Shown: positions 17,880 to 50,846 of the stretch, one piece after another | Position numbering within the stretch: position 1 is the first letter of the stretch | How the letters are laid out: every line of letters starts with the position of its first letter | Virus record (IMG/VR): IMGVR_UViG_3300049020_000006 | Span: 1-50,846 of that record | From: a virus | Length of the DNA: 50,846 nt | Reading direction: 5' to 3' (one strand) | Notes under the pieces: generated by a model | Seen by the model: the letters and a program-made list of their open reading frames with translations, nothing else | Databases searched by the model: none | What the model was told of the DNA's origin: nothing | Position numbers and translations under genes: made by a program

Positions 17880-17903
17880 GTTCTTATTATTGTTTCGCTC
17901 GAG

Positions 17904-17945
17904 CAAACCCGTCAAATACGAAGCCAATCATATTCGACGGGTTTG
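17904..17945 (-). other. Long-loop inverted repeat between gp55 and gp47
   Basis: CAAACCCGTC (17904-17913) and GACGGGTTTG (17936-17945) form a perfect 10-bp stem with a 22-base loop, in the 70-base gap between the gp55 stop and the gp47 start. There is no U-run after it on the minus strand, so it is not a normal intrinsic terminator. RNA processing, a Rho-type pause or control of gp47 translation are options. Confidence 0.5.
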
Positions 17946-38200: not shown

Positions 38201-40243
38201 CCTGCACAGAATAGAACCTCAACACCAGTATTTGCTGATGGTCTTCGTGTTGATCCTGATCTCGTGCAGTACGTCGCAGTTACGTCTTCTGTCAGTATTG
38301 CTCCGCAATATGTTGAGAACAAGAACTACGATTACACGAGTTTTGGTTACGGTGCCAAGGGACCATTGCGTGAAGTGAAATACTTCCACAAGTTGATTGG
38401 TACGCAAGTATTCAATCTGGAGTTCCCGCTGGCTACAAGCGCTCACCTACAAGTCACCCTTGACGGTGAAGAATTGTTGCCAGAAATTGATTTCACAATC
38501 ACAAATGGCATCATGTCAGTAACTAATTCAATGGCCGGATTCCTTGCCGTAGCTATGATTGACAACGCCAATGACGTATTTGATGATATCAGAGCCTTTA
38601 GCTTCAAGGGTGGTAGTTTGGTGGGCAAGACTTTCCTAGAACTCTACCCAGAGTTGGGAAATACCGCACGTCACCCAATCAGCCAGAACTTCATCATTGA
38701 GCGTGACGGATACAGAATCCAACCAGAATGGACCTATAACATCAACGTTCATTCCATGAACAATCAGTTGATGCTTGATCGCGACGGCCCAGTGGAAGAC
38801 CTGATTGCTAGATTTAACGGTGTCATTGAGCCGATCGCGAATAAGTTGTGGAAGAAATATGTCTTGCCAGCAGCAACGAGATCTGTTGAATTACTCGCCA
38901 GCTCAACACTCGACAATATGACAATCCTGGATTATCAAACTGGTTTGCCGATTGTCGTAGGCGTGATCGTTAACGACTCTGATAGCAGTGATCCTGATCT
39001 TGATCCAGATAACCCAGAATACAATGGGTTGGCTCCTTGGGAAGGTATCGATCAAGTGACATGGGATACATGGGATGAAAACTATGAGAGTGAAGGTACT
39101 CAATTTGAATATCAAGTTTCTCCAGCAAATGCTGAATACGTTTTGCACAAGGGTCATATTATCAGCCTGACCGCAATGAATGCTGATCGTGAACTCTATA
39201 TCTCTGTTGACAACTATGTCCCAGAATCATTCGAGGGATGGAATTGGGGTGATGCAAACGAGGAGAAGTTGGTGAAGATCAACCATATCCTCGCATGGGT
39301 TGGTGGTACGTTTGGCCGTCTGTGCGTCACAGACCGAAACGGTGACTTTGAGATCGAGGATGTGATCCTGGACAAGTTCCCAGGCACACAAATGATCACG
39401 GTCACAGACTTCAAACATGCGGAAAACATGGGCATCCATTCACATTCATGGAGACCAAATGAATTCACAACGTTCCCTGTCAGCGCATTGGGTCCAAACA
39501 AGTATTCATATTGGGTCAACCTGAATGGTAAGAGATTGATCAATGGTGTCGACTACGAAGTCATTGATTACCCTTACGCTTACGATGAATTCAGCTTCGA
39601 TACTGAAGGTTGGTCACCAACTGAATACTATCTCCACGGTATGGTTGCTGGTCAATATCTGGGTGGTTACGACGGCTATCGCAATTATGCGATGACGAAT
39701 GCAACTGCTACCGAATTGGTACCAGGACATCGTTTCCGCTCACGTAGATTTGATTTCTTCGATTGGGATCACCACGTAGTGGCTGTCAAATTGCTTAATT
39801 ATGTAGAAAATGAAGATGATATTATCATTGCCACAGTATTCTCCGAAGAGCAAGCCACATTTGGTGAAGAGTATGAATTGTTTGTTCGTAACTCAGAATC
39901 CAAGAACCCAACGGTTCAGGATATGAGTGATGACTGGATGACTAAAATCAACCTCAAGGACACATATTATCTCCTGGATGAAGTAACCATTGATTCGGAT
40001 CTGATCAGAATGAAGAAGATTGTTTCTCCGTTCTATCGTGATGTTGAATTGACTGGTCCCGGTAAGATTTGGGTAGGAAAAGAACTGGTAACTTATCAAG
40101 ATGCCGTTTATGATCCATCAACTCAGATAACTACAATAACGGGTATCAATCGTGGTGCTGAAATCACAACTAGAGATCAGCATGCTATCGGGGAAAGATG
40201 TGTGGTTACGAGTTTCATGTATCCGCAATATGTGCCCCTATAA
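29225..40243 (+). CDS. 7: Giant baseplate wedge protein, gp7-like (3672 aa)
   Basis: The start (YISQLPAVLQTQTLQQFFSS, then TVDQLFQPG) and place after gp6 point to the gp7 wedge protein, which links gp6 to peripheral wedge parts. At 3672 residues it is over three times T4 gp7 (1032). Visible parts: an N-terminal domain (1-150); two tandem beta domains at about 152-290, each with a GDGxKxxFxxP/GNGTKTAFKLP strand followed by INGxxL; a small carbohydrate-binding-like module near 1355-1400 (ADTYYTVNVRVHHEGTNYVC, then EFEPEFW); and a run of Trp/Tyr-rich segments to the end. No separate gp8 or gp10 gene is seen, so it may carry some of their roles (inference). Base use matches its neighbours. Confidence 0.75.
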   Translation: MAKRRYISQLPAVLQTQTLQQFFSSTVDQLFQPGVTESMNALIGKKPSYFNVLRDFYKAESSKERQFYQLEPAMTAKADSVTEYSDLLFYQDLVNSLRFQGADVSNHSRLFESEMYSWCPPIDVNKLVNYRDYYWMPDGPPVLVLEVPSVGGVVSYVGDGVKSRFTIPREVIEQRENVVVRINGQRLSNEQFNKVGDEVILVQYDNQSGQDVEVPLPEGDVIRIWRNGDYLGNGTKTAFKLPALIPDAAVDVTATINGIQALTSTYNVVGDKLVFNTPPTAGATIQIWGNSYFKQNIVGKNSYTHTIPGKGYAKQSQQNEFTGRYEVIKFPEIIIDTPPPLERFFRIEIRDNTGATLYQVNRTEDEKLTLGKVDKLIKRIEPLHTVIEKQSPVNSPWSRSNHWYHTDSVFYFYDNYKPQRATRPIIEFMGDVRLWKYGLNRLDDVNDIVATIKEDPWLYDRWTSFAPGAIYNSPAVHIDGVMQPLPTGRVMFRSNSTDGNRTAIEDQILNLVLRSTVTNLPEEVLAYDSELITFAEVSSTSLGKYVGEESTEAVWSNYDNDGWDGEFTLRVSQPDITRKWDIFKMVDSFAEYYYEGQEWVSAQEFKFPYEPLFELYDDNSIKRSDIETKAFSDLTAYPGSDFQGNKIFAFKRGTGKNDAVLGFPLSRNKFGNLDFEDRTNDKITHDGGEVKGFKYFAHMTLDYDVVDIDLENTDIDLWQATFDAQRNFTNRYANNWLYAGNSNQTIAEEGFYNIPLSLQANPRNEQISTISLNDWNQHFKPVVSSNNWKSVSVNRDLSLGRSILQHRSPLLRTMFVNSNSNVDFMKAVIYNEREYVRYMNKFVQSLKRTATNMNVDDTAEILDRLLHVIRVSKTSDFPFTNSGMAGGDWYIPVSGAAIGAVPAWKPEIIIETSKVADLQTTMIRGHDGSLTAGFTKGTSAEPIEVGEYDSRDLVLLALETKIYDNLESEFRARRRPSHDVMSQIPGKFRQGDYSRDEYIKICRPLFERWCAQNQLNYRENKFRNDNAWTYNYSKVGAADGSVIPGNWRGIYRYYFDTDRPDTHPWEMLGFTTKPSNWDAMYSWTDATKREALIQAIEVGLVDTVKDVRDPIFARAGFRDVCPVDESGGLLDPIQAKIVGTFGIHRFESPWEFGDGSPIEIQWWNSYYGSFTLSQLGYLMKPVRFIESNWLANDEMLVHDHQWVSPRTGWREQTNTEIVHNELVNGVLVKKMGVQTWISDYLRSQGKAVTGLLGDHIRTLHVNLAHKLGGFIEPRSLKAFTETTGLIPQEDVLLALYRSPSVREEFYGGVITEWTGRGWRLLGYDIVDPVFKIKPVVPTGRRARVALSEDLNTTLDWRADTYYTVNVRVHHEGTNYVCAKTHTSGKEFEPEFWTAESVGRIDNALALTWYSEHEEEIVRIPYGTVLQTRQEVADFLSGYQAYLETRGWSFENYDYEINETLDFKYSLREFMYWTETRWVEGSFISLSPSSEMVKFVTKHGTVQNVDQLVNGAYSLVDRAGLSIPPNKITTNRLDDVITVKPYGGNGIFGLRVYISEVEHALVFNNQTIFDDVIYDPLFNLRQSRLRVLASISQDWVGRLDAPGFVITDNALMPSFEQQVQDIRYMYDVEKAINLPLRTNARHQIGYQSRDYLEGLMFNDTNQFEFYQGMIQQKGAPGVFNKLLRNDGLTASKQLSFLEEWAFRKGEYGGTEKFEKFEFILNKYQIKAEPQQIEFISNNSGYDILTYENTGAPIELHWDSMTQEGLESLDTEEDTVIQIYDYMGLYDRRWIAPKKAAAFDQIDDFMRSKQALPSAGYARLKETKFQDLSIPAFNKQIVTASEDLELTDRVWIYKDENNNWDVYRASLPHKSIDIVINGSDVTSFDELDSALNVIPFGTVSDGIVYYKINMAALPTGLVVGKIVEILNNKSPALGLSGMYEVKAIDGNAFLVTHKSVEVVGYEPTLEGTLVSMDVPVKLIVGDKVYLSREINKNEKIGGIHTVVDLGPTPYSVILDVACEADFEYQLKDEKPRMFKMASVRISTNDKTKDNRVNSLDGSDLTEINNVVPLDQFKAGEFLYVDVCYDFGYQYELHAHKRRWSVYQWNGTGFSVARRQPPKIKRDMIRDVRLFETLSIRTAETLNAKPLVNTDILILDPSQGLVPGVAQKEVAFKLEYDPASYNTGPEGDKGLEWGAKEVGKLWWDLSTTRYLINETDEIIAVQDRDLAEIEYRSSTWGQLAPGSSVDIYEWTKSSLTPQEWQAEYELEEHDPHIDGDVYLPDDSSYVTSEEWDERLGKYVAVYYFWVKNRLYSPANTAFRKMSGHRVSEILSNPLGQSIAWIAPISMNSLITSGITQYLTRTTSMQLTVARTAGESVRHVEWQLMRKGDERSLPDADLWTKLTQSLAARDIWGVQIPDMRRYYTDRIGFDVHHGQNLFRDIKSARRHLVDYLNGIFSKTLIVDERRDLIVLNDSEGKKPELVWAQAHDSYYIKPIPHVKLWSGLVDTLNRPEEPIKFFWESELDYTVRLIKWRYENNSAINTTVPFQYEKDVFALLRNLKMGEAYWSVMDVERWDNFAGDEPWGSIYDADQVENPLEPNGPTNPWTGPGFEWDIAKAAMMWHHEVDTFQERDALMPAEPGTRVKIRGNESTGGFWTLWEYNGSSWNFLQNQRYNSQDAWEFVDWYEEGVSPLDPPQYRYPTIAVRDQTILQSDGFIKFVLIENDGKGRWMWTALRNGVWEVVAKQNGTFKLKDSIWKNTGNFYDDSVLDFENMADKVTSRDLGYELDYILNALRDEIFTDEELNGFFFSMIEHAHTEQDYIDWAFKTSYMNVTGYGDRLTQSPIAYADLTHNLLEYIKEVKPYHVKVRDYISKYRIATDVANTHATDYDKPVYVDRNTGEKRVLSPYNPADIVILNRGKFIHWYDQWRLYDQGENDNMPLVRKIKVTSAYLDEAKIHVTGSIRIRVMRKGDAGGAMIEGGVAQGYENSGLLLDLENPAQNRTSTPVFADGLRVDPDLVQYVAVTSSVSIAPQYVENKNYDYTSFGYGAKGPLREVKYFHKLIGTQVFNLEFPLATSAHLQVTLDGEELLPEIDFTITNGIMSVTNSMAGFLAVAMIDNANDVFDDIRAFSFKGGSLVGKTFLELYPELGNTARHPISQNFIIERDGYRIQPEWTYNINVHSMNNQLMLDRDGPVEDLIARFNGVIEPIANKLWKKYVLPAATRSVELLASSTLDNMTILDYQTGLPIVVGVIVNDSDSSDPDLDPDNPEYNGLAPWEGIDQVTWDTWDENYESEGTQFEYQVSPANAEYVLHKGHIISLTAMNADRELYISVDNYVPESFEGWNWGDANEEKLVKINHILAWVGGTFGRLCVTDRNGDFEIEDVILDKFPGTQMITVTDFKHAENMGIHSHSWRPNEFTTFPVSALGPNKYSYWVNLNGKRLINGVDYEVIDYPYAYDEFSFDTEGWSPTEYYLHGMVAGQYLGGYDGYRNYAMTNATATELVPGHRFRSRRFDFFDWDHHVVAVKLLNYVENEDDIIIATVFSEEQATFGEEYELFVRNSESKNPTVQDMSDDWMTKINLKDTYYLLDEVTIDSDLIRMKKIVSPFYRDVELTGPGKIWVGKELVTYQDAVYDPSTQITTITGINRGAEITTRDQHAIGERCVVTSFMYPQYVPL

Positions 40244-40246
40244 ATA
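40239..40246 (+). promoter_or_regulatory. Exact TATAAATA box at the end of the giant gene
   Basis: TATAAATA matches the T4 late box at all 8 bases. It overlaps the giant gene's stop and the next ATG. A start near 40252 lies inside the small gene at 40246, so if active it would serve the gene at 40410 and later ones. It may also be chance. Confidence 0.35.
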
Positions 40247-40413
40247 TGACCGAAGAAAATAAAAAAGACAAAATAGAACCCCAGACTTCTGATGAGGTCT
40301 GGGACACTTCAGGAATTTCAGTAACGGATCACCTAAAAATTAGGGATCCGGATACTGGAGAAGTTTTGCTTAGTGTTCATGGTTCTATGAAAAAAACAGG
40401 AAGAGAAGAATGA
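40246..40413 (+). CDS. Small hypothetical structural-type protein (55 aa)
   Basis: The ATG at 40246 lies 2 bases after the giant gene's stop; no ribosome binding site is seen, so coupling to the upstream gene is likely. An in-frame ATG at 40198 inside the giant gene is less likely. After 20 acidic disordered residues it has ITDHL-type sequence VTDHLKIRDPDTGEVLLSVH, which resembles the N-terminus of the next product (FVEIRDADTRELLADVH), so the two share a small domain. It ends as ATGA with the next gene. Confidence 0.55.
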   Translation: MTEENKKDKIEPQTSDEVWDTSGISVTDHLKIRDPDTGEVLLSVHGSMKKTGREE

Positions 40414-41024
40414 AAGAAACCAAGTTCATGGTTAAGGCTGAGGGATTTGTAGAAATTCGCGATGCTGACACCAGAGAGTTACTTGCTGACGTCCATAATG
40501 ATATTCATTTGGAAAACTTCAGTGAAGCTGTGGCTCTAGCTCTGGGAAACTATGACCGTGGTGTTATCGAATACATGTATTTCGGAAGCGGCGGATCAAC
40601 GGTTGACTTGACTGGCAGCATTGATTATAACGACACCAATGTCGTTGGTCGCGATGCTGACATCTACGGATCTCCCAGTGGCTACAAATATGGCAAGGTG
40701 GTAAATGATCGAAGTGCCAATTTCGACTCTGATCCAGATCGCACCAACGTTAAGGTCCGTCATATTGTTGGAACTACTTACAGTGATGTGATTGTTACTT
40801 GCACTTTGGAATACGGGGAACCACAAGGCCAGGCAGTTTATGATGATGCCGACACTTCTGAAGGTGATTTCATCTTCGACGAAGTGGGTTTGAAATCCTA
40901 TGATGCGGCAACTGATACGATGCGTTTACTCACTCATGTGATATTCCACCCTATCCAAAAATCGCTCAATCGTGCTCTGGAAATTGTGTACACCATCAGA
41001 ATCACTATGATGGCCGACGCATAA
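40410..41024 (+). CDS. Virion structural-type protein (204 aa)
   Basis: The ATG at 40410 overlaps the previous stop (ATGA) and has AGAAG upstream. The N-terminal 35 residues share the IRDxDTxExLxxVH element with the preceding small protein, followed by NDIHLENFSEAVALALGNYD, a helix often seen in proteins of this place in T4-like phages. The rest is beta-rich, with an EYMYFGSGG turn and a C-terminal paired-strand region. Location between wedge and fibre genes suggests a baseplate-fibre connector; no T4 counterpart is recognised. Confidence 0.55.
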   Translation: MKETKFMVKAEGFVEIRDADTRELLADVHNDIHLENFSEAVALALGNYDRGVIEYMYFGSGGSTVDLTGSIDYNDTNVVGRDADIYGSPSGYKYGKVVNDRSANFDSDPDRTNVKVRHIVGTTYSDVIVTCTLEYGEPQGQAVYDDADTSEGDFIFDEVGLKSYDAATDTMRLLTHVIFHPIQKSLNRALEIVYTIRITMMADA

Positions 41025-41070: not shown

Positions 41071-42033
41071 ATGTCTTCCAATTATCAAATAACAACAGAA
41101 CTGAACGGCACGTTTGAAGTCGTAGCAGGTTCTATCAAGACCGATCTGGCTCTTAAGCTAGTCGGCCGCGGAGCGCCAGGTTATGGTTTGGCCTTTGCTG
41201 AAAACACAATTAAGACCTTGTCGAACCATGCCTCCACGGCATCGAATCGACCCGGTACGGCGACTGGTCAAACAGAACCACTAGTTGGTATGCTGTGGTA
41301 CAATTCAACCATCAAGGCCATGATGCATTATGTGGGTTTCTCCTCACCTGGAGTTCCACATACCGGCGCTGACCAACATGGTTGGTCTAAGATCAAGAGT
41401 GGTAGTAGTGGTCCCCTGGCTATCGTTGACGGTGGTACAGGCATGTCCACAATTGGCACTCCTGGCCAAGTAATCCGAGTAGCCGCTGACGGTGTCAGTC
41501 TGGAGTACACGTCCAATTACGTTAGAACTGACGGCGATTCACCAATCCCAGTTGATAATGCTTGGACCGTTGGTACCCCAACTAATCGTTTCCGTAGAAT
41601 TCACGCTGTGGTGTTTGACGGTGAAGCAACTGCCGCTGACTACGCTGACGTTGCCGAACGTTACGAAGCTGATGCATACTTGAACAGTGGTGATGTTGTG
41701 ATGCTTGGTGGTGCCAAGGAAATCACGACTGCTACTGGCGAAAATTCCATGGAAGTGTTTGGTGTGGTGTCCACTAACCCTGCTTTCATGATGAACAAGA
41801 ATGCCGGTGATAATGTTACTCATCCATACATTGCTCTGATCGGTCGAGTACCAGTCAAGGTGATCGGAACAGCAACGAAGGGTCAACGACTGGTTATGAG
41901 TTCAACTCCAGGTGTGGCTAAGGCTGTGACCTTGGGACCAGATGTTAGCCCATTCAGTGTATTTGGTAGAGTGTTGGCTGACAAAACAACCTCCGATGTT
42001 GGTTTGGTTGAAGCCGTAGTTGGAGTGAAATAA
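41071..42033 (+). CDS. Tail fibre protein with C-terminal G2-peptidase/chaperone-like domain
   Basis: This 320-residue protein starts with a beta-rich attachment part (1-150; TNRPGTATGQTEPLVGMLWY-type segment). From about residue 180 it follows the pattern ADYADVAERYEADAYLNSGD followed by VVMLGG, EVFGVVST and YIALIGRVPVKVIG, which I recognise from the C-terminal domains of many phage fibres related to peptidase G2 and intramolecular chaperones. These domains trimerise the fibre and can cleave themselves. GGAG lies before the ATG. It overlaps the next gene by TAATG. The host receptor cannot be told from this. Confidence 0.7.
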   Translation: MSSNYQITTELNGTFEVVAGSIKTDLALKLVGRGAPGYGLAFAENTIKTLSNHASTASNRPGTATGQTEPLVGMLWYNSTIKAMMHYVGFSSPGVPHTGADQHGWSKIKSGSSGPLAIVDGGTGMSTIGTPGQVIRVAADGVSLEYTSNYVRTDGDSPIPVDNAWTVGTPTNRFRRIHAVVFDGEATAADYADVAERYEADAYLNSGDVVMLGGAKEITTATGENSMEVFGVVSTNPAFMMNKNAGDNVTHPYIALIGRVPVKVIGTATKGQRLVMSSTPGVAKAVTLGPDVSPFSVFGRVLADKTTSDVGLVEAVVGVK

Positions 42034-42992
42034 TGCCAATTGCAACCCCAGGCACAAAAATTACCGCAGCCGACTATCTCGGTTTGCGCTCTCGTGTGAA
42101 CACGATTCTGGGTGATGCTGGCGTGGTTGAACATTTGGGTTACGGACAAATTCTTGACAGCGATTCATTGGGTTCCAATAATGTAGCCGTTACCAAGAAG
42201 ATTACGGCTGCTCAGTGGCTGGCACTCAGGGATGACATTGCAACGGTGCATCTGCATCAGACTGGAAATTCCTTTGACACTGTGGCTCTTCCACAAGTCT
42301 CACCAAGCATGAAGATTGCGGCGGCTCACGTCAATGCATTCGACAACTGTGTGAACGTCATTGTTCAAAATCCCCTTGAGGCATTTGTTGGTGGTATGGC
42401 TTCCAGCACACTAGGAACCCCTAGAATCAACGCAAGCGCATGGGGTGGAACCGGTGCACTATCCATTGTTTTGGAAGAAACGGTGACGTTTACCAGCTTG
42501 AACAAAGCTCGTTACTTCTTCAACTCCGGTGGTGCGATTCGATTCACTTTGATGCATCCAGTTACTGCAACATCTAATAACGCCGCATGGCGAAACGTGT
42601 TGAACACCATAGGTGTTATATCAGTTAGAGCCAAGTCCACAATATCAACAGGTAATGTTGGTGGTACACAATTGGGCTTCTATGAAATGGGAACATCATT
42701 CACTAGAATGTTCTATCACACTGGTGGTGGTAGCGGTGGAAATTATGGCGGTGGATACGGTTATTATGGTGGCGGAAACGTTGCCGTTGCTGTAGATGCT
42801 CGTCGTAATGGAAACGCAATCACATTCCGAGTGATCTTGAGTGACCGTACTGGTGACTCCATTGCTAACAGCATCGACGCAGGTACTACTTGCACAATTT
42901 CCAGCTACAAGGCGGTGAATCCTTTGGTTGGCATCGAGACTCCCACTCCATCAAACGGAGTTTGGACCAAGGCTCCTACTAATCTGGCATAA
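42033..42992 (+). CDS. Fibre-tip type structural protein with Gly-rich loops (319 aa)
   Basis: The first 110 residues hold two related segments (TPGTKITAADYLGLRSRVNT and VTKKITAAQWLALRDDIATV), a short internal repeat. The rest is beta-rich with a remarkable Gly/Tyr loop near 231-250 (GGGSGGNYGGG, then YGYYGGG). Gly-rich loops of this kind are found at the tips of some T4-like fibres (gp38 adhesin type), so receptor contact is plausible. The ATG overlaps the fibre stop (TAATG). It is the last structural gene before the accessory operon. Confidence 0.6.
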   Translation: MPIATPGTKITAADYLGLRSRVNTILGDAGVVEHLGYGQILDSDSLGSNNVAVTKKITAAQWLALRDDIATVHLHQTGNSFDTVALPQVSPSMKIAAAHVNAFDNCVNVIVQNPLEAFVGGMASSTLGTPRINASAWGGTGALSIVLEETVTFTSLNKARYFFNSGGAIRFTLMHPVTATSNNAAWRNVLNTIGVISVRAKSTISTGNVGGTQLGFYEMGTSFTRMFYHTGGGSGGNYGGGYGYYGGGNVAVAVDARRNGNAITFRVILSDRTGDSIANSIDAGTTCTISSYKAVNPLVGIETPTPSNGVWTKAPTNLA

Positions 42993-43051: not shown

Positions 43052-43945
43052 ATGGCCGAATCTACGCGCGGTTTTCTTATCTACGCGCACAATAACGAAG
43101 AGATTGATTATGGCAAATTAGCCATATGTTGCGCCCTCATGATTAAGGCCAACCTGAAGGAAAATGCCACTTGTCTGGTGGCTGATGCTGGAACTTTGGG
43201 GTGGCTTAGACAAAACATGGGCGATGCACTGGTAGATCAAGCATTCGATCACATCAAGGTAACTGACTGGTCATTCCAGAACTCCGCTACGCAGAGAAAA
43301 TTCAATGACACGCTGAGTACTGGGCGACAGTTGACATGGTACAACGGTTCACGCAGCTCAGCTTATGAGATGTCGCCATTCGATGAAACTATCGTCCTTG
43401 ACAGTGACGTCTTGGTGCAAGACTCAATGTTTGACAAGGTGTGGGGCAATGCTGAGGAAGTGTTGATCAACAAAGATGCATTGACCCTAATGCAACAGCC
43501 ACCCAAACCCAATGAACGTAGGTTGGAGAGTTCCAGTCTAGTCATGTATTGGGCGACTATGATCTATTTCAAGAAGACCGAGAAAGCCAAAATCCTGTTT
43601 GACTTGGTAGATCATATCAAAAGCAAATACGCCTATTATCAACACATTTATGAGTTTCCAGGCGCGCTATATAGGAACGATTACGCGTTCAGTATTGCGA
43701 TTCATATGATGAGTGGTTTCATGGAAACCAATGAATTCCCACCTTTCCCCAATCCCAAGATCCTATCAAGTTTCGACGTTGACGAGCTATTGGACGTGGA
43801 AAGAAACGAATTGAAATTCTTGGTTTCCTCAGACAACAATGATTGGTCTTTTGAAGCAACAACCGTTCGTGGAATTACAACTCATGTGATGAACAAGTAT
43901 TCGATCATCAGACAAGCGGACAAAATCATCCAACTTTACAAATGA
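43052..43945 (+). CDS. Glycosyltransferase-like protein 1 (GT-A type)
   Basis: This 297-residue protein resembles GT8-like GT-A enzymes: an N-terminal Rossmann-type strand (GFLIYAHNN), the metal and nucleotide-sugar motif in ETIVLDSDVLVQ (DSD at 117-119), and a late THVMNKYSI segment where GT8 enzymes place a metal-binding His. I chose the ATG at 43052 because GGAG precedes it; a GTG at 43034 would start inside the hairpin. It has the same layout as the next gene's product (both about 300 residues with DxD near 100-120), so they are distant paralogs. Donor and acceptor sugars are unknown. First gene of an overlapping operon. Confidence 0.65.
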   Translation: MAESTRGFLIYAHNNEEIDYGKLAICCALMIKANLKENATCLVADAGTLGWLRQNMGDALVDQAFDHIKVTDWSFQNSATQRKFNDTLSTGRQLTWYNGSRSSAYEMSPFDETIVLDSDVLVQDSMFDKVWGNAEEVLINKDALTLMQQPPKPNERRLESSSLVMYWATMIYFKKTEKAKILFDLVDHIKSKYAYYQHIYEFPGALYRNDYAFSIAIHMMSGFMETNEFPPFPNPKILSSFDVDELLDVERNELKFLVSSDNNDWSFEATTVRGITTHVMNKYSIIRQADKIIQLYK

Positions 43946-44841
43946 CAAGAGAATTCAAAAGAAAGCGAGGGTTCTTTACCCTCGCACAAAATGGCACTCA
44001 TGATTATCTGCGCATGGCATATGCCTTGGCTCTGAGCTTGAAAGCAACACAAACAGAAGTGCCCTACTTGTCCGTGGGTGTAACTCCAGGCGCAATTATT
44101 CCAGACAAATATCGTGAAGTGTTTGACGAAGTGATTGAAATTCCATGGCAGGATGATGCAGCGAATTCAAGCTGGAAACTCGAAAATGAGTGGAAGGTGT
44201 ATCACATGACTCCCTATGAGGAGACGATTAAACTTGATTGTGATATGTTGTTTCTCAGCAATGTGGATGACTGGTGGGATTTTCTCAGTACCCAGGATTT
44301 TTGGGCGTCCACTACTGCTTTGACTTATCGTGGTGAAGTGGCAACTAGTGATTTCTACAGAAAGACATTCACTCACAACAAACTCCCCAATGTCTACAGT
44401 GCATTCATGTATTTTAAATACAGTGACTTGGCGAAGGAAGTATTTGAGATGACTGAATTGATCTTCCAAAACTGGGAGCATTTCACATACACGTTCTTGG
44501 AAGAACCAAGACCAACAGAACTCAGTACCGATGTTGCGATTGCCCTTGCTATCAAGCTCTTGGGTAAGGAAGACGAATGCACAAATCCAACCAGAAACTA
44601 TCCCAACTTCATTCACATGAAAACCAAGATGCAGAACTGGATCGGTTCCAAGGATATTCCTGAGGATTGGGCAAACAGCATCAGCGTGTTCATGACTGAA
44701 GACCTGGAGTTGAAGATCGGACGATATCGTCAGTTGGCTCCGTTGCATTATCACTTGAAAGAGTTCGTGACAGATGAAATGTTGGAACTTTATGAGCGAG
44801 CCATAAAAACTAATAAATTGAAAGGACGTAAGAATGGATGA
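43942..44841 (+). CDS. Glycosyltransferase-like protein 2 (GT-A type)
   Basis: This 299-residue protein has the same plan as protein 1: first strand RGFFTLAQNG, helix YLRMAYALALSLKA, then EETIKLDCDMLFLSNVDDWW with DCD at 99-101 as the DxD motif, a central DFWASTTALTYRG acceptor-side region and a C-terminal HMKTKMQNW segment with a candidate metal-binding His. It overlaps its neighbours on both sides (ATGA at the start, 8 bases at the end). Related proteins are common in large marine and environmental T4-like phages, mostly without assigned substrate. Confidence 0.65.
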   Translation: MTREFKRKRGFFTLAQNGTHDYLRMAYALALSLKATQTEVPYLSVGVTPGAIIPDKYREVFDEVIEIPWQDDAANSSWKLENEWKVYHMTPYEETIKLDCDMLFLSNVDDWWDFLSTQDFWASTTALTYRGEVATSDFYRKTFTHNKLPNVYSAFMYFKYSDLAKEVFEMTELIFQNWEHFTYTFLEEPRPTELSTDVAIALAIKLLGKEDECTNPTRNYPNFIHMKTKMQNWIGSKDIPEDWANSISVFMTEDLELKIGRYRQLAPLHYHLKEFVTDEMLELYERAIKTNKLKGRKNG

Positions 44842-45190
44842 TAGATTGACCAAGGCGCTGGAGTTCTCGCACTTCAGAACGGCATCGAATTTGATGAAGG
44901 AGAAGCTGAAGCTTCGTTTGGAAAACCTCCTCACCTATTCAGAAAACGGTGGCACATTCAAGGTGACCCCGGAGCTCATCAGCTTCGTCGATGTGTTGAT
45001 CCGCAAAGGATTGACCGAAGCAGTGTTGCTTGATTCCAGAGAAAACCCCGTAATGATCAAAGACTTGGCTACATTTTCTGATACCCTGGTGTCACAATAT
45101 GTGGAATCAACCAACGAATATCTGATCGAATTTGACAAGCTGAAGAAAGCCAGATCAGTAAGCCAAGCAACAGGTATCGCAAAGCCATGA
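44834..45190 (+). CDS. Conserved-looking helical protein (118 aa)
   Basis: The start at 44834 has AAAGGACG upstream and lies inside the end of the previous gene. The product is helical with a central pattern ENLLTYSENGGTFKVTPELI followed by LLDSRENPVMIKDL, which I associate with a small protein family widespread in T4-like phages of unknown function. The C-terminal helix (YVESTNEYLIEFDKLKKARS) is charged. It is coupled by ATGA to the next gene. Confidence 0.6.
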   Translation: MDDRLTKALEFSHFRTASNLMKEKLKLRLENLLTYSENGGTFKVTPELISFVDVLIRKGLTEAVLLDSRENPVMIKDLATFSDTLVSQYVESTNEYLIEFDKLKKARSVSQATGIAKP

Positions 45191-46107
45191 AAACCATCAA
45201 CCTCTATTACAACTTGAAGACTGCGGCTATCGTTGCCGCATCTCCTGTTGAGCAGGAGGAATTCAAAGACTTGGCGATGGTTCAGGTTCCGTTCGATGAT
45301 GGGTTGGCGTTCCTTACTGGTGAGAAGTCGTTCAGTGAATGGTTTATCGTAGGAAAGCCCGACAACTACGTTCTGACCAACAATCCACTGGACATTCCAC
45401 CATTACATTCTGGTGGAATTTACCTAATCCCTAGGGCAAGAAATTCAACTCTGTTCTGTGGTATTGCGGCGACGGTTTATCTAGCCAGTGATCTGATTGA
45501 GTTCAGTATTCCAACCAGGCATGCAGGGATAAGACTTAAGGCAGTGAAAGAACGTGAGCTCACGTTCTATCTTACCAAGAGAAACGATCCCGAACACATC
45601 ATCAAGGAAATCACCATCTCGGTGAAGAAATTGATTGCCGAGGGTTCAATCAAGATCAAATTGGATCTCGAAGGTGAACATCAGGACTTTTCCCTACTGA
45701 CTACTCGCGTGTTCAATCAATATCGCTTCGAGGTCATCAAGAGTGTTTGGTTCCAGCAAACAACTGGTACCACTGCAAAGATCAACAACTTGGTGGCTTT
45801 TAAGGAAAGAAGTAAAGTTGATGATGATGAGAAGTGTATCTTAGCGATCCATCACAAGAAGAAGAATCGAATAACTCTTCGTTTGCAAAATGGCGCAGAT
45901 GTGGCGGGCTTTGATGGCATGCAGGGTTTGATATTCTTGACTGCTCCAAGAGATCCTACTGTAATCATCCACCATTACACCTTGGATATTTCATCATTAC
46001 TGGATGGTCGAGTAATTGAATTCCCAGTCCCCAAGGATGTAACAGGTGCATTCGGTCTTGGTGGCATTCCACTGGCTGAGAACTTATTTTTCGTGAAGCA
46101 GAAATGA
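45187..46107 (+). CDS. Unknown beta-rich protein (306 aa)
   Basis: The ATG at 45187 overlaps the previous stop (ATGA). The product is beta-rich, with alternating hydrophobic and charged stretches, no signal peptide and no Cys motif; segments such as GIYLIPRARNSTLFCGIAAT and GLIFLTAPRDPTVIIHHY look like strands of a structural or lectin-like fold. It ends as ATGA with the third glycosyltransferase-like gene. It could be a virion protein that is the target of the operon's enzymes, but nothing in the sequence proves this. Confidence 0.55.
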   Translation: MKTINLYYNLKTAAIVAASPVEQEEFKDLAMVQVPFDDGLAFLTGEKSFSEWFIVGKPDNYVLTNNPLDIPPLHSGGIYLIPRARNSTLFCGIAATVYLASDLIEFSIPTRHAGIRLKAVKERELTFYLTKRNDPEHIIKEITISVKKLIAEGSIKIKLDLEGEHQDFSLLTTRVFNQYRFEVIKSVWFQQTTGTTAKINNLVAFKERSKVDDDEKCILAIHHKKKNRITLRLQNGADVAGFDGMQGLIFLTAPRDPTVIIHHYTLDISSLLDGRVIEFPVPKDVTGAFGLGGIPLAENLFFVKQK

Positions 46108-47009
46108 AACAAAAATTTGACATGAGTGAGTTCGACGTATTCTTTTTGAGTTACGACGAACCAAATGCTGAAAAGCATTGGGCGGATCTACTGGACAAAG
46201 CTCCATGGGCAAAACGAGTCCATGGAGTAAAGGGTTTTGATGCGGCGCATCGCGAATGTGCCAATCAAAGCGAGACTGATTGGTTTGTCACCGTTGATGC
46301 AGACAACATCGTCCTCCCGGAATTCTTTGACCTTCAGGTTGAACTCGACCCAGTTCTGGATGTGAAGAAGTGTTTCTCATGGAACGGTCTGAACATGTTC
46401 AATGGATTGATGTACGGTAACGGTGGCTTGAAACTGTGGTCGAAAAAGTTTGCTTCCAACATGAAGTCACATGAACTGTCGGAAGACGACGATGCGGTTG
46501 ATTTCTGTTGGGAAGAAGACTACCAGCAGGTTCATCAATGTTACAGTGAGGTTTGGAACAACGCAACGGCATACCAAGCATTCCGTGTTGGCTTTCGGGA
46601 AGGAGTAAAGCTAGCATTGGATCGAGGAATGCGCTTGGAGCCTCATCTAATGAAGTCCAGACTGCATCGTGTCAACTTGCGGAACCTCAGAATTTGGGCA
46701 TCCGTGGGTGCAGATATTGAAAATGGCGCGTGGGCCATTTATGGCACTAGAATGGGCTGGAGAAAGGTCTGTGATCTCAATTGGGACATGGCAGTGATTC
46801 GTGACTACGACTGGTTTGATAACTATTGGGCAAAGGAAATCTATCCAAGATTCCATGATGTCAATGGTGTATTTTTACCCATGACATTACAGGATGAAAT
46901 CGTTGGAGTGGGTACTGAGATCAGAAGTCTTACCAACATCGAGATCGCAAATCTCGACAGCACGGCGAGTGAATTCTTCAGAGAAACTTTTAAATTAAGG
47001 AATGATTGA
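46104..47009 (+). CDS. Glycosyltransferase-like protein 3 (DADN motif)
   Basis: This 301-residue protein starts with a GT-A-like strand (FDVFFLSYDEPNAEKHW) and has the motif WFVTVDADNIVLPEFFD with DAD at 66-68. It differs from proteins 1 and 2: it has GT2-like spacing and lacks their C-terminal His segment, so it is a separate family. A central region (CWEEDYQQVHQCYSEVWNNA) is Cys- and Trp-rich. The stop at 47007-47009 overlaps the next ATG (TGATG). Substrate unknown; shared operon with radical SAM genes suggests action on the same target. Confidence 0.6.
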   Translation: MKQKFDMSEFDVFFLSYDEPNAEKHWADLLDKAPWAKRVHGVKGFDAAHRECANQSETDWFVTVDADNIVLPEFFDLQVELDPVLDVKKCFSWNGLNMFNGLMYGNGGLKLWSKKFASNMKSHELSEDDDAVDFCWEEDYQQVHQCYSEVWNNATAYQAFRVGFREGVKLALDRGMRLEPHLMKSRLHRVNLRNLRIWASVGADIENGAWAIYGTRMGWRKVCDLNWDMAVIRDYDWFDNYWAKEIYPRFHDVNGVFLPMTLQDEIVGVGTEIRSLTNIEIANLDSTASEFFRETFKLRND

Positions 47010-47260
47010 TGGGCTTACATGTGGTGAAACTTTATTCTCCTTGGATGGATACTCTGTCGTATAGAAAGAGACCCAAAGAGAATAGGATCGACCACCAAGC
47101 TCAACTTTGGTTGAGCGAAATGTACCCAGGTATCAACTTCCTCTGCACACCCACTATTGTGGAAACCCACCATGAGCTGCCAATCAGAAGCCGCTCAATA
47201 ACAGAATTTTCATTCTACGATGAAAATATAGCCATCCACTTCAAGCTGGCGTTTTCATGA
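47009..47260 (+). CDS. Small protein, duplicate copy 1 (83 aa)
   Basis: I chose the ATG at 47009, which overlaps the previous stop and has TTAAGGAA upstream. The product shares YSPWMD, the QAxLWLSEM(Y/F)P core and a C-terminal FSFY(D/E)E..(I/L)xFKLA tail with the gene at 47288, so they are tandem duplicates. Both look like compact beta/alpha domains with one Cys. They sit directly before the radical SAM genes, and small genes in that place can encode substrates or partners, but neither has a leader-peptide look. Function unknown. Confidence 0.55.
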   Translation: MGLHVVKLYSPWMDTLSYRKRPKENRIDHQAQLWLSEMYPGINFLCTPTIVETHHELPIRSRSITEFSFYDENIAIHFKLAFS

Positions 47261-47301
47261 CCGAAAAGACATATTGCGGAGCAATAAATGGCGCAGTATG
47301 A
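47257..47301 (+). pseudogene. Leftover start of a radical SAM gene (14 codons)
   Basis: The end of copy 1 overlaps an ATG at 47257 (ATGA) that begins MTEKTYCGAI and stops at 47299-47301. The genuine radical SAM gene at 47539 begins in the same way after copy 2: ATGA overlap and MTEKSK. The bases TCATGACCGAAAA are identical at both places. This looks like the scar of a duplication that once included the start of a radical SAM gene. Confidence 0.5.
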
Positions 47302-47542
47302 TGTGACCATTTATTCACCTTGGATGGATTTTAGATCTACCACTAAGGAGAGCATTACAGAATCAACGAGATACCAAGCGCATCTTTGGTTATCTGAAAT
47401 GTTTCCCGATGTCTTATTTCGATGCGCGGAATTCGTGGAAACGATCAACCCAACGGGGTATACGATAAGACGTAGAGCAAGACTCACCTTTTCTTTCTAC
47501 GAAGAAGATGTGGCACTTCAATTTAAACTGGCAAATTCATGA
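47288..47542 (+). CDS. Small protein, duplicate copy 2 (84 aa)
   Basis: The ATG at 47288 has GGAG with a 6-base spacer, placed inside the leftover minicistron. The product is homologous to the 47009-47260 product over its full length (YSPWMD near residue 9, HLWLSEMFPDV, FSFYEEDVALQFKLANS at the end). Its stop overlaps the ATG of the first radical SAM gene (ATGA), so production of the two is coupled. A role with the radical SAM enzymes is suggested by this coupling only. Confidence 0.55.
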   Translation: MAQYDVTIYSPWMDFRSTTKESITESTRYQAHLWLSEMFPDVLFRCAEFVETINPTGYTIRRRARLTFSFYEEDVALQFKLANS

Positions 47543-48972
47543 CCGAAAAATCAAAGAACCAAATCCTCGTTGACGAGATGAAATCTCGCATGACTGAGAT
47601 CGAGGAAAAGAGTGGTTCACCCACAATGTGTATGGCGAAATGGCTTCAGAGTACCGTATACTTGATGAATGGCCATACGCATTCATGCCACCATCCTTCA
47701 CCACATAAGATTCCAATCAGCGAAATCAAGAGGAATCCCAAAGCACTGCACAATACTGAATTCAAGATTCAAAAGCGTGGTGAAATGCTGGCAGGTCAGA
47801 GACCCAAGGAATGCCAGTATTGTTGGAACGTAGAAGACCTTCCAGGTAATCACATGAGTGACCGCACCTACAAGAGTACGAGTCCCTGGAGTCACCCAAA
47901 TCTACAGTCAGTTATCGATTCCAAAGATGGTCGCGATATCAATCCAACCTATCTTGAGGTTGCGTTCGACAACGCTTGCAATCTGAAGTGCATGTATTGT
48001 TCACCAGATATTTCATCCAAGTGGATGGAAGAGAGTGAACGTCACGGCCCATACACGAGAACATCAAACAACGTGGGTGGCATTGATTGGTTGAAAAAGA
48101 TTGGTAAGATGCCAATTCCAATCAAGGAAGAAAACCCATACGTGGATGCATTTTGGGAATGGTGGCCCGAACTGTACAAGAGTCTTCACACATTCCGCAT
48201 CACTGGTGGTGAGCCACTAATGAGCAAGAATACATGGCGTCTCTTGGAAGAGATCAAGAACAACCCTAGGCCTGATTTTGAGTTGGCAATCAATACCAAC
48301 ATGCAAGTCCCTGATGCACTGATTGATCGTTTCATTCAGTATTACAATGACATTGCCCCCAATATCAAGAGCTTTGAAGTATTCACATCGTGCGAAGCAA
48401 CGGGCAAGCAGGCTGAATACATCCGCACTGGTATGAACTACGACAGCTTCCTAGCTAATTGCAGGAAGTTCCTGGCAAAAACTGGCCATCTGTCCCGTCT
48501 CAACTTCATGATCACATTCAATATCCTGAGTCTGAGCACGTTCAAGGAATTCCTTGGTGACATTTGGCAATTGCGAGCAGACTTCAACGAAGCTGATGCA
48601 TTCAATCGTGTACCCATGATGGTCAACTATCTGAGATGGCCACAATTCCAAGATGTCCGAGTCGCCCCGAGGGCAATCAAGGAAAGATATTTCCAAGACA
48701 TCAAGGAATATGTTTACGCCAACACGCGCAATACCAGTGAGAATCCGTCAGCTAGGTTCTATCTGGAGGAATTGGATCAAATTGAACGGTTGGGTGAATA
48801 CATGTTCGAGCCATTGTCCGATGAACATTTGCAAAAACAGATGAGTGATTTCGGTGGATTCTATCCGGAATACGATGATCGACGAGGCTTAAATTTTGAT
48901 GCGACGTTCCCTGAACTATCGGACTTTCTCACCGAATGCATGGAAGTGAATTCAAGGAACTACGATGAATAA
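47539..48972 (+). CDS. Radical SAM protein 1 with N-terminal twitch/SPASM-like domain
   Basis: This 477-residue protein has a Cys-rich N-terminal domain (C31 in TMCMAKW, C50 in SCHHP, C92 and C95 in ECQYCW) of the twitch/SPASM kind that can hold an extra iron-sulfur cluster, then a radical SAM core with CNLKCMYC (C147, C151 and C154) and a GGEPL motif (RITGGEPLMSKNTW). Normal SPASM domains follow the core; here it comes first, as in the N-terminal twitch type known from phages. Such enzymes generate a 5'-deoxyadenosyl radical to modify peptides, sugars or small molecules. It overlaps the next paralog by 8 bases. Substrate unknown. Confidence 0.8.
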   Translation: MTEKSKNQILVDEMKSRMTEIEEKSGSPTMCMAKWLQSTVYLMNGHTHSCHHPSPHKIPISEIKRNPKALHNTEFKIQKRGEMLAGQRPKECQYCWNVEDLPGNHMSDRTYKSTSPWSHPNLQSVIDSKDGRDINPTYLEVAFDNACNLKCMYCSPDISSKWMEESERHGPYTRTSNNVGGIDWLKKIGKMPIPIKEENPYVDAFWEWWPELYKSLHTFRITGGEPLMSKNTWRLLEEIKNNPRPDFELAINTNMQVPDALIDRFIQYYNDIAPNIKSFEVFTSCEATGKQAEYIRTGMNYDSFLANCRKFLAKTGHLSRLNFMITFNILSLSTFKEFLGDIWQLRADFNEADAFNRVPMMVNYLRWPQFQDVRVAPRAIKERYFQDIKEYVYANTRNTSENPSARFYLEELDQIERLGEYMFEPLSDEHLQKQMSDFGGFYPEYDDRRGLNFDATFPELSDFLTECMEVNSRNYDE

Positions 48973-50287
48973 GAAAGTAATTTTCCTGAAGGAAATCAAA
49001 GACCGATTGGACGAAGTGAGTCCCAGTATGTGCTTGGCTAAGTGGACGCAATCAACCATCTACTTGAATTCCGGCCACACGCATTCATGTCACCATCCAG
49101 GTGTACACAAGATTCCACTTGAAGGGTTGGATGAAAATCCAGGCATGATTCACAACACCCCACACAAGATGGAGTTGCGCCAGGAAATGCTGGATGGTAA
49201 ACGTCCAACCGAGTGTGACTACTGCTGGCGCATCGAAGATTTGGGTAAAGAACACATGAGTGATCGAATATTCAAATCTGCTGATCCTTGGAGTGCTCCA
49301 AAATTCGGAGATGTGATCGCATCAGGCCAAGGAAAGGATTTTGCTCCTATTCATTTGGAAGTTCTCTTCGAATCAACGTGCAACTTCTCATGTGTTTACT
49401 GTATGCCTGATGTGTCAAGCAAATGGTATGCTGAAGTAAAGGAACACGGCCCATACGAAATGACAGGGTATACACACGGTATGATAACCGAACGTGTTGA
49501 CGCCAGGTTTACCCTAGGTAAGAGTTTTTTCAATCCCTATATAGATGCCTTCTGGAAGTCTATCGAGGGATGGTGGCCATCGTTGCGGACTTTCCGTATC
49601 ACTGGCGGTGAACCTCTTCTCAGCAAGAATACTTGGTCTATGATGGATTTCGTTGAGGAAAACGCAAATAAAGAATTGACCTTCGCCATCAACACTAATT
49701 TGGGAGTTCCAGACGACAAGATTCAGATGTTGATAGACCGATCAAACCAAATCATTGGGAATCTCCAGGATTTTTGCGTCTATACGTCAGTTGAAGCGTC
49801 TGGTTTGCAGGCTGAATATATCAGAACTGGTATGGACTATGCCAAATTCATCAATAATTGCAAGAGAGTTTTGGAAGAGACTAGTGCCACACTCATCGTG
49901 ATGACAACCATCAATGTTTTGAGCTATTCAACTTTTGAAGACTTTGTAAACACTTTCCTCGACCTTAGGAAAAAATACAAAACTAGGGTTCGGTTCTCAT
50001 TCAACTTTTTGAGAAACCCCGAATGTTTGGATGTCCGCCATCTACCACGTTCACTCAAAGATGAATGGTTGATCTCTATGAATCAATTCATAGATGGCAA
50101 CGTATTGAGTGAAGAAGAAGCGTTGCAACTTGGTAGAGTTCGTGATTATCTAGACAGCGAACTTGAACCAGGACAACAGCAGATCAGATTGAGCGATTTG
50201 AAGACCTTTACTACTGAATTGGATCGACGTCGGGGGTTGGATTTCCCAAATACCTTTCCTGAATTGCATGCACTTCTTCAGCAATAA
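48965..50287 (+). CDS. Radical SAM protein 2 with N-terminal twitch/SPASM-like domain
   Basis: This 440-residue paralog of protein 1 has the same order of motifs: C23 (SMCLAKW), C42 (SCHHP), C84 and C87 (ECDYCW), then CNFSCVYC (C139, C143 and C146) and RITGGEPLLSKNTW. Both proteins keep the C-terminal DRRGLDFPNTFPEL/DRRGLNFDATFPEL ending, so the family has a conserved C-terminus as well. The ATG lies inside the end of the previous gene. Tandem paralogs that keep all cluster ligands argue for two related reactions and against decay. Confidence 0.8.
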   Translation: MNKKVIFLKEIKDRLDEVSPSMCLAKWTQSTIYLNSGHTHSCHHPGVHKIPLEGLDENPGMIHNTPHKMELRQEMLDGKRPTECDYCWRIEDLGKEHMSDRIFKSADPWSAPKFGDVIASGQGKDFAPIHLEVLFESTCNFSCVYCMPDVSSKWYAEVKEHGPYEMTGYTHGMITERVDARFTLGKSFFNPYIDAFWKSIEGWWPSLRTFRITGGEPLLSKNTWSMMDFVEENANKELTFAINTNLGVPDDKIQMLIDRSNQIIGNLQDFCVYTSVEASGLQAEYIRTGMDYAKFINNCKRVLEETSATLIVMTTINVLSYSTFEDFVNTFLDLRKKYKTRVRFSFNFLRNPECLDVRHLPRSLKDEWLISMNQFIDGNVLSEEEALQLGRVRDYLDSELEPGQQQIRLSDLKTFTTELDRRRGLDFPNTFPELHALLQQ

Positions 50288-50290
50288 ATA
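50283..50290 (+). promoter_or_regulatory. Probable late promoter AATAAATA (third radical SAM gene)
   Basis: AATAAATA overlaps the stop of radical SAM gene 2 and ends 17 bases before the ATG at 50308. The predicted 12-base leader contains AGGA. Octamer and spacing match the portal and fibre promoters. Confidence 0.6.
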
Positions 50291-50307
50291 TCAAAACAGG
50301 AAAATCT

Positions 50308-50846
50308 ATGAATCTAGACGAGATGAACAAGTCCACAATTTGCGCCCAACCATGGTTTGGTGTGGTTGTTGGCCCCAATGGGAATTCAAAATTATGTTGC
50401 GAGGTTACTGACGAATTCAAAGGATTGAACATCAAGACTCATTCATTCCATGACATTCAACATAACGACCGCGTGATCGAGATTCGAGAAGAGATGAAGG
50501 CTGGCGGCAAGCCCAAGGAATGTTGGAGATGCTGGCAGAAAGAGGAATCAGGGGCGAACAGTCTCCGCAAAACTCTAAATGAGCACTATCATTTGAAAAA
50601 TGGTGACTTCAAACCAGATTTAGTTGAGCCACAAAATATCGAATTGGTTCTTGGAAATCTGTGTCAACTTAGATGCGTAATGTGTCACCCCTCAAGATCC
50701 AAGAAAGTCCAAGAAGTATTTGAACACGTCATTAAGACCGACTTCAGAAATTCTTATAAAGAATCGATCAAAATACTCCCAGAGGGATTTAATACTGATT
50801 GGGTGGAAGATTCAAAAATCTGGGATTTGATTGCGACCCAGTCGCT
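50308..50846 (+). CDS. Radical SAM protein 3, N-terminal twitch type (partial, runs off window)
   Basis: The frame is open from the ATG at 50308 (AGGA upstream) to the window end, 179 codons. The N-terminal domain is closer to a typical SPASM pattern than in proteins 1 and 2: C12 in ICAQPWFG, CC at 30-31 after VGPNGNSKL, and C72/C75 in ECWRCWQKEE. The radical SAM site is CQLRCVMC (C119, C123 and C126). Unlike the first two it has its own late promoter. It belongs to a different branch of the same family, so the cluster holds at least two branches. Confidence 0.78.
   Translation, partial: MNLDEMNKSTICAQPWFGVVVGPNGNSKLCCEVTDEFKGLNIKTHSFHDIQHNDRVIEIREEMKAGGKPKECWRCWQKEESGANSLRKTLNEHYHLKNGDFKPDLVEPQNIELVLGNLCQLRCVMCHPSRSKKVQEVFEHVIKTDFRNSYKESIKILPEGFNTDWVEDSKIWDLIATQS

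Follow-up and report, generated by a model that had tools for sequence, protein, structure and literature searches.

We propose that the genes directly behind the tail fibre genes of this virus most likely form a cassette that adds an unusual sugar to the fibre or, alternatively, to the host surface. The window analysed here is the whole 50,846-nucleotide stretch of IMG/VR record IMGVR_UViG_3300049020_000006. Our preferred reading, to which we give a probability of about 0.45, is a soluble module that places a radical-SAM-tailored glycan on the fibre or another virion protein. An earlier note on this DNA had described an operon of glycosyltransferase and radical SAM genes; across related phages the glycosyltransferase set is a universal core, whereas the radical SAM genes are accessory and variable.

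Upstream of the cassette lie a conserved tail protein gene (40410 to 41024, + strand; PHROG 11259, E 6.5e-55) and two fibre genes, fib1 (41071 to 42033, + strand; tail fiber PHROG 19602, E 5.6e-13) and fib2 (42033 to 42992, + strand). The latter encodes a terminal fibre protein with a Gly/Tyr-rich loop, and is a candidate acceptor for the glycan. The tail protein at 40410 shares 50-53% identity with Atu_ph07 and Phosso proteins, and the PA5oct homologues of both this protein and fib2 have been detected in virions by MS/MS. The ORF listing of the window confirms a ten-gene operon after the fibre genes: ten close-packed ORFs, all on the + strand, follow in the order GT1, GT2, sm118, X, GT3, dupA, dupB, rS1, rS2 and rS3. 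Neighbours overlap by 4-8 bp at seven of the nine junctions, the exceptions being a 27-bp gap between dupA and dupB and a 20-bp gap upstream of rS3. The late timing that had been suggested for these genes finds no support in promoter words: a single T4-type late-promoter word occurs in the window (TATAAATA at 40239), a count at chance level. Likewise, a scan of the window for sigma-70 promoters and terminators returned no more sites than shuffled sequence. The cassette proteins are all soluble, and the operon holds no membrane flippase, other membrane protein, polymerase or lipid-linked step.

Three of the ten proteins were originally read as GT-A-like, with DxD motifs, and this reading holds better for the first two than for the third. 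GT1 (43052 to 43945, + strand, with a possible alternative GTG start at 43034) keeps both D117 and D119 invariant in 31 homologues. Its AF2 model (pLDDT 93) supports a GT8-type GT-A fold, with Foldseek matches to 4wnh (a xylosyltransferase, E 3e-7) and then to glycogenin and LgtC. GT2 (43942 to 44841, + strand) is a paralogue of GT1, the two profiles picking up each other. A profile match to glycogenin (E 1.8e-7) supports the same predicted fold for GT2, and its motif at 99-101, DCD, has an invariant D101 and a D99 present in the majority of homologues. Since no Pfam glycosyltransferase family scored above cut-off for either window protein, we call them GT8-like without assigning Pfam membership. 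GT3 (46104 to 47009, + strand) is a putative GT-A (GT2-like) enzyme. It does carry the expected DxD, at 65-67 rather than 66-68, and none of 32 homologues departs from D65 or D67. Beyond this motif, its identity as a glycosyltransferase is weakly supported and not firm: the match to Pfam Glycos_transf_2 reaches 13.1 bits, below the 23.3 cut-off, and weak Glyco_tranf_2 matches occur in just three of the 32 homologues.

Two further core proteins accompany the glycosyltransferases, and neither matched a curated Pfam or NCBIfam model. The small soluble protein sm118 (44834 to 45190, + strand; alignment A4) also matched no PHROG family. It follows GT2 in the window and stands directly after fib2 elsewhere. 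Its identification with the HTVC008M 'L-shaped tail fiber protein assembly' protein was rejected, there being no match. Next comes the beta-rich protein X (45187 to 46107, + strand; alignment A6), whose slot is filled by an ORF in 169 of 176 loci. Its AF2 model (pLDDT 88, pTM 0.57) predicts an N-terminal domain and two beta-sandwich domains. A VIA-align structure search with this model found common beta-sandwich arrangements alone (best Z 5.1, rmsd 3.4 over 87 residues), and we therefore assign X to no family; its top matches in BFVD are phage proteins without names.

The duplicated small protein described previously is real. dupA (47006 to 47260, + strand, with a TTG start followed by an ATG) and dupB (47288 to 47542, + strand) are two clearly similar 84-aa ORFs. 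No relatives were found in the other loci of our first survey, where their cluster is confined to the window, and they appear to be lineage-specific, local additions. Consequently, they make poor candidates for a general target of the cassette, as the earlier note had offered them, and a RiPP reading built on that role was rejected.

The radical SAM proteins carry an N-terminal twitch domain, as first thought. rS1 (47539 to 48972, + strand) and rS2 (48965 to 50287, + strand) score 332 and 297 bits against NCBIfam NF033640 (N_Twi_rSAM), each over model positions 1-397 of 398; the curated cut-off being 170 bits, they belong to that family by this profile evidence. rS3 (50308 to 50846, + strand) scores 113 bits (model positions 2-156, 146 residues of the 179 present) because the window ends inside the gene. 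Of the three radical SAM genes originally described, this record therefore bears out two as complete. The cluster ligands are indeed all kept. We compared 62 sequences, counting rS1 and rS2 together with 60 homologues. Conservation is 98-100% for the CX3CX2C motif (C147, C151, C154), for the N-terminal cysteine quartet (C31, C50, C92, C95) and for a GGEP at 223-226. rS2 retains seven of seven ligand cysteines, and all seven are also present in the part of rS3 that lies within the window.

Of the 14 large phage records, 13 carry such genes, in numbers that vary from 1 to 21 per phage. Glycosyltransferase or sugar genes lie near them in 54 of 57 loci. Radical SAM genes away from sugar clusters occur in phages L025, L031 and L038 and in the bacterial genome G017. 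Bacterial neighbourhoods of the family are mixed, polysaccharide-type in the Bdellovibrionales locus L088 and of another kind in G017, and therefore do not settle the substrate.

The association of the core with fib2 is close to invariant. We surveyed IMG/VR loci chosen solely by the upstream tail gene at 40410, independently of the cassette. Wherever a locus extended far enough past fib2, the core was there (sm118 in 59/59, GT2 in 48/48, GT3 in 37/37), in identical order in all 37 loci where this could be read, with variation limited to the downstream array. Co-occurrence beside the fibre genes of related phages, which had been proposed as a check on the operon, was therefore strongly upheld. 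The core comprises sm118, GT1, GT2, X and GT3, each single-copy, kept in order and placed directly after fib2; 11 of 14 large phage records hold a single GT1 and GT2 pair. The gene order recurs across dozens of diverged loci, far above chance, and sister loci hold nucleotide-sugar genes such as an epimerase and RmlC. When viral contigs were scanned with GT3 or with the 40410 protein on its own, few loci came up; alignment A2 was too variable for use in such scans. Core-gene distances correlate with fib2 distances at 0.75-0.80 and with those of the 40410 tail protein at 0.54-0.73, the core genes following fib2 divergence more tightly. Physical linkage alone is a possible cause of this co-inheritance.

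In our preferred reading, GT1, GT2 and GT3 would be cytosolic enzymes that have sm118 and X for dedicated partners and build a short glycan, which is attached to the fibre or another virion protein as the particle is assembled. The radical SAM enzymes encoded downstream would then be interchangeable tailoring enzymes. Each would abstract a hydrogen atom from a sugar or nucleotide-activated precursor, with the electron accepted by the four-cysteine auxiliary cluster, yielding an oxidised or otherwise altered sugar. Such a glycan might alter fibre binding or conceal the fibre from host defences. In favour of virion glycosylation we count the core order after fib2, the GT1 and GT2 pairing, the correlation with fib2, the GT8-like fold with its DxD motifs, the sugar-gene neighbours, the varying radical SAM complement, the solubility of the proteins, the joint absence of cassette and fib2 loop from PA5oct, and the precedent of glycosylated mycobacteriophage virions. 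Against it we count a published reading of similar genes as host O-chain modification (PMC7029224), a fib2 loop argument drawn from one comparator group, the uncertain status of GT3, and the radical SAM genes found outside sugar clusters.

The loop itself invites a more specific suggestion. Tyrosine Y238 is kept in all 61 aligned homologues of fib2 outside PA5oct; PA5oct, the single comparator group here, lacks both the cassette and the Gly/Ser loop that bears this tyrosine. It is conceivable, albeit rather improbable, that GT1 and GT2 start a glycan on the tyrosine of this flexible loop in the manner of glycogenin, and that its sugars are then oxidised or rearranged by the radical SAM enzymes. 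The phages would thereby gain a rapidly variable fibre glycan that tunes adsorption.

The same genes might instead act on the host; this, the main rival reading, is possible, if somewhat doubtful. The enzymes would alter the O-antigen, capsule or a lipid-linked precursor during infection, excluding competing phages or keeping progeny from being trapped, and joint evolution of receptor and fibre would account for the place of the genes beside the fibres. Such a role has been published for the pelagimyophage host recognition cluster, where it is the interpretation given to GT8 glycosyltransferases and to sugar genes (PMC7029224). The fold matches of GT1 include the GT8-type LPS enzyme LgtC, and soluble GT8 enzymes also build LPS. 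Nucleotide-sugar genes in sister loci are consistent with such a role, as is the Bdellovibrionales homologue in L088, which lies within a polysaccharide cluster sharing epimerase and TPP-enzyme families with those loci. However, strict single copy and fixed order after fib2 would be unusual for host-dependent surface genes, which are expected to turn over with the host, and the operon has no membrane protein, flippase or polymerase.

We consider it unlikely that the radical SAM enzymes instead cross-link or alter residues of a virion protein (X, fib2 or the fibre tip) in the manner of RiPP maturases, glycosylation being either independent of this or subsequent to it. Their N-terminal twitch/SPASM-type architecture would suit such chemistry. 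Further, at the same place Atu_ph07 and Phosso encode radical SAM/SPASM proteins weakly resembling PapB, DynA and DarE, and a neighbouring protein ends in a conserved CH[ST]SCHASCH[SN]SRSRR tail. Yet the cassette ORFs include no Cys-rich or repeat-tailed substrate, nearly all loci have their radical SAM genes after sugar genes, and the Atu_ph07/Phosso operon shows no homology to the core. Glucosylation of modified phage DNA bases is highly improbable, although it is a common role of phage glycosyltransferases and has been raised for core glycosyltransferases in a different lineage of aquatic jumbo phages (PMC12619734). Thymidylate-synthase-family genes occur in nine of 14 records but were not found in the cassette-bearing G006, G009 and G014, records that may be incomplete. 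The family includes dCMP hydroxymethylases, and its presence is a weak test, not a decisive one. The cassette sits within the tail-fibre gene run, and family searches found no DNA-modifying gene in the operon.

The core is a near-universal module across hundreds of uncultured phage contigs, representing a large and widespread group of giant phages. If the fibre is glycosylated, a diversifying chemical layer would govern host range in these phages, a layer to which receptor prediction from sequence is blind. Up to 21 radical SAM genes would be devoted to such chemistry in some of them. If the host surface is remodelled, the cassette would be a widespread takeover function. Fibre-linked islands of GT8 and radical SAM genes have already been published, as has virion glycosylation. 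Our literature search turned up no account of a rigid core of this kind, of sm118 or of X, and in the library searched no paper combining 'radical SAM', 'jumbo phage' and 'glycosyltransferase'.

Several known systems share parts of this arrangement. Mycobacteriophages glycosylate capsid and tail-tube proteins with phage-encoded enzymes (cited in PMC12619734), just as the cassette encodes putative glycosyltransferases of its own, and its glycosyltransferase genes stand within the structural gene block as in virion glycosylation systems. The account of mycobacteriophages cited there mentions no radical SAM enzymes, whereas here they form part of the cassette, whose neighbours are fibre genes and whose glycan is a prediction. 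Campylobacter phages CP220 and CPt10 encode 11-12 radical SAM proteins, for which a metabolic role was proposed; in CP220 a block of them follows baseplate lysozyme and PAAR genes and precedes two nucleotide-diphospho-sugar transferase genes (PMC2853527). The radical SAM block is the feature in common, and searches with rS1, GT2, GT3 and sm118 returned zero matches in Campylobacter phages.

Phosso and Atu_ph07 share the same tail locus (tail proteins at 45-53% identity) and carry a radical SAM operon behind a fibre gene. Unlike the cassette, this operon has a cupin, SPASM-type radical SAM proteins and a candidate Cys-rich substrate, relatives of which were found on one contig only in our scan. 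Homology between the two operons was rejected, profiles of GT1-3, sm118 and X against four of the Phosso/Atu_ph07 operon proteins giving probabilities below 1%.

A further likeness is to the pelagimyophages, T4-like phages of 132-164 kb. The earlier note was right that no function is established for such an operon, yet these phages have a similar island (PMC7029224). In it a large baseplate gene is followed by tail fibres, by a number of GT8 glycosyltransferases and by radical SAM cassettes that vary. The window has a like arrangement, in which a 3672-aa protein would be the counterpart of the baseplate protein VrlC. The right-hand boundary of the pelagimyophage cluster is the neck gene gp14, a position that here would lie past the end of the window. 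In the cultured pelagimyophage HTVC008M, 2OG-Fe(II) oxygenases occupy that place instead, and tblastn over the phage collection found none of the cassette proteins there. The pelagimyophage cluster is hypervariable and non-syntenic (PMC7029224), whereas the cassette described here has a rigid, single-copy core and belongs to large phages.

Behind the fibre genes of this 50.8-kb virus record lie ten plus-strand ORFs whose neighbours overlap or almost touch, confirming, with small corrections, the gene set that the earlier note had described there. A gene encoding a 3672-aa protein (29225-40243) is followed by the conserved tail protein gene 40410 and then by the fibre genes 41071 (fib1) and 42033 (fib2). 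The tail genes have their nearest relatives in the jumbo myophages Phosso and Atu_ph07 (45-53% identity). Since G+C content is constant across the boundary between fibre and cassette genes, there is no sign of recent cassette import. The sole T4-type late promoter word in the window (TATAAATA, 40239-40246) lies just before the run of tail, fibre and cassette genes; a single match in a scan of the window does not exceed what chance would give. SbcC- and SbcD-like nuclease genes of the T4 gp46/gp47 type, in opposite orientation, occupy 15075-17927 between the portal and baseplate groups.

The cassette includes a small soluble protein (sm118), two GT8-like GT-A proteins (GT1, GT2), a beta-rich protein (X), a putative GT-A-like protein (GT3) and the downstream radical SAM genes rS1, rS2 and rS3. 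IMG/VR holds 317 relatives of rS1, and most of the best 80 of these loci share the order fib1, fib2, sm118, GT1, GT2, X, GT3, rS1; the window differs in placing sm118 after GT2. To avoid selecting loci through the cassette, a second scan was baited by the 40410 family alone. Among its best 80 matches, near-duplicates included, loci with enough sequence past fib2 carried sm118 (59/59), GT1 (51/51), GT2 (48/48) and GT3 (37/37) in identical order throughout, and a radical SAM gene was present in all 13 with at least 7.5 kb past fib2; 15 more loci, some having several kb of sequence, had no recognisable fib2. The co-occurrence beside fibre genes in related phages on which the earlier note had staked its proposal was thus borne out. 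A scan baited by GT3 returned at least 594 relatives; in the 80 loci read, GT2 was present in 68, but a radical SAM gene lay within reach in just 34. The glycosyltransferase set therefore forms the core, with the radical SAM genes as cargo. Whole-record counts tell the same story, with exactly one GT1 and GT2 pair in 11 of 14 large phage records and 1 to 21 N_Twi radical SAM matches per record in 13 of the 14. Single records reached 21 in G006 (locus L033), 19 in G014 (L215), 15 in G010 (L064) and 13 in G009 (L052), the matches being spread over several clusters. No relatives of GT2, GT3 or sm118 were found among 50,697 phage records.

The GT1 model (pLDDT 93) matches GT8-type GT-A structures, namely xyloside xylosyltransferase, glycogenin and LgtC. 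Profiles of GT1 and GT2 recognise one another, and the GT2 profile matches glycogenin sequences (E 1.8e-7). GT3 retains an invariant DxD and many further invariant residues and matches Glyco_tranf_2 only weakly, making its assignment as a glycosyltransferase less certain. None of these proteins in the window scores above the cut-off of a Pfam glycosyltransferase family. Between GT2 and GT3, 169 of 176 loci have an ORF in the position of X, and many of the encoded proteins combine a shared N-terminal domain with a shared beta-sandwich domain. Modelled with AF2 (pLDDT 88, pTM 0.57), X matches only generic beta-sandwiches.

Both rS1 and rS2 qualify as full members of the NCBIfam family N_Twi_rSAM (332 and 297 bits; cut-off 170), and rS3, whose gene is interrupted by the window end, represents the N-terminal portion of a more distant member. 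Across 62 sequences (rS1, rS2 and 60 homologues), three SAM-cluster cysteines, four N-terminal cysteines and a GGEP motif are 98-100% conserved. Four cysteines on one auxiliary cluster suggest that it would be fully ligated and electron-accepting, like that of BtrN and other dehydrogenating twitch enzymes. A glycosyltransferase or sugar-pathway gene lies within about 10 kb in 54 of 57 distinct radical SAM loci, the families including NAD-dependent epimerase, RmlC, carbamoyltransferase and GT7; a nucleotidyltransferase-like and a GatZ/KbaZ-like protein were also identified. In some loci the same radical SAM family is preceded by an alternative set of a GT-like gene, an 80-aa protein and two GT7-like genes. 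In L020, L040, L043 and L049, clusters c18, c19 and c28, followed by two GT7-like c8 genes, take the position ahead of this radical SAM array and look like a replacement of the glycosyltransferase set. Bacterial neighbourhoods give mixed evidence on a sugar context. Most of the closest bacterial rS1 relatives found reside in Bdellovibrionales genomes (L085-L088 and L091, which comprise Bdellovibrionales and other proteobacterial MAGs); the L088 relative lies within a polysaccharide cluster, and others lie outside such clusters.

Our preferred reading, to which we assign a probability of about 0.45, is that fib2, fib1 or X, as the virion protein modified, receives a short glycan in the cytosol; sm118 and X would serve as partners, and the radical SAM enzymes would tailor the sugar by radical chemistry. 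It draws on the GT-type folds, the conserved catalytic residues, the fixed order behind the fibre, the single copy per phage, the variable radical SAM cargo and the sugar neighbours. Across 102 distinct loci, the correlation of pairwise distances for sm118, GT1, GT2 and GT3 is 0.75-0.80 when set against fib2 and 0.54-0.73 against the 40410 tail protein; the value of 0.58 between GT2 and 40410 lies above every one of 999 permutations, whose maximum is 0.15. Physical closeness can account for some of this. In PA5oct, the fib2 homologue is detected in virions and is followed only by small genes on the other strand. The Gly/Ser loop is missing from it, although each of the 61 other homologues aligned retains the tyrosine of that loop; only one group serves as comparator here, and the tyrosine could have a structural role.

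That the cassette enzymes instead remodel the host surface is a weaker prospect, though a serious one; in none of the cassette proteins does any stretch reach the hydrophobicity of a membrane segment. Radical modification made directly on a virion protein seems improbable. In L025, L031 and L038, from a different phage type, one rS1-like gene is flanked by two conserved genes, assigned to clusters c30 and c31, and the sequence in reach contains no sugar gene; this context possibly hints at a non-sugar substrate. DNA glycosylation we regard as very improbable. The earlier note had suggested modification of virion proteins or of a glycan displayed on the fibre or host surface, and this is supported in part; the GT-type folds, the place behind the fibre and the sugar neighbours agree with it, but the radical SAM genes are variable cargo and not core.

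The closest known system is the host recognition cluster of pelagimyophages, which combines tail fibres, GT8 glycosyltransferases and radical SAM cassettes and was read by its authors as modifying the O-chain (PMC7029224). Moraphages, another aquatic jumbo lineage, have four core putative glycosyltransferases, as described in a paper that also mentions mycobacteriophage virion glycosylation (PMC12619734). Campylobacter phages CP220 and CPt10 encode 11-12 radical SAM proteins (PMC2853527). In the cultured phage CP220 (L265:6942-19274), baseplate lysozyme and PAAR genes precede a radical SAM block, an amidinotransferase-like gene and two nucleotide-diphospho-sugar transferase genes, resembling the window in pairing radical SAM and sugar-transferase genes behind tail-tip genes. 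In the cultured phages Phosso and Atu_ph07, the corresponding place is taken by a radical SAM operon unrelated to the cassette. There, behind a fibre gene, a cupin and three or four radical SAM/SPASM proteins accompany a protein of about 300 aa ending CH[TS]SCHASCH[SN]SRSRR (Phosso L092:18312-19232; Atu_ph07 L093:19062-19952), a candidate RiPP-like modified, perhaps virion, protein. At a comparable position, Pelagibacter phage HTVC008M (L269:10909-13782) has four 2OG-Fe(II) oxygenase genes and a ferrochelatase gene beside its fibre genes. Given these pelagimyophage, Campylobacter-phage, Phosso/Atu_ph07 and HTVC008M cases, modification enzymes behind tail-tip genes are a theme already described or apparent in several phage groups. 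The novelty appears to lie in the rigid core of five genes, in the two unnamed families that it contains and in how widely it occurs.
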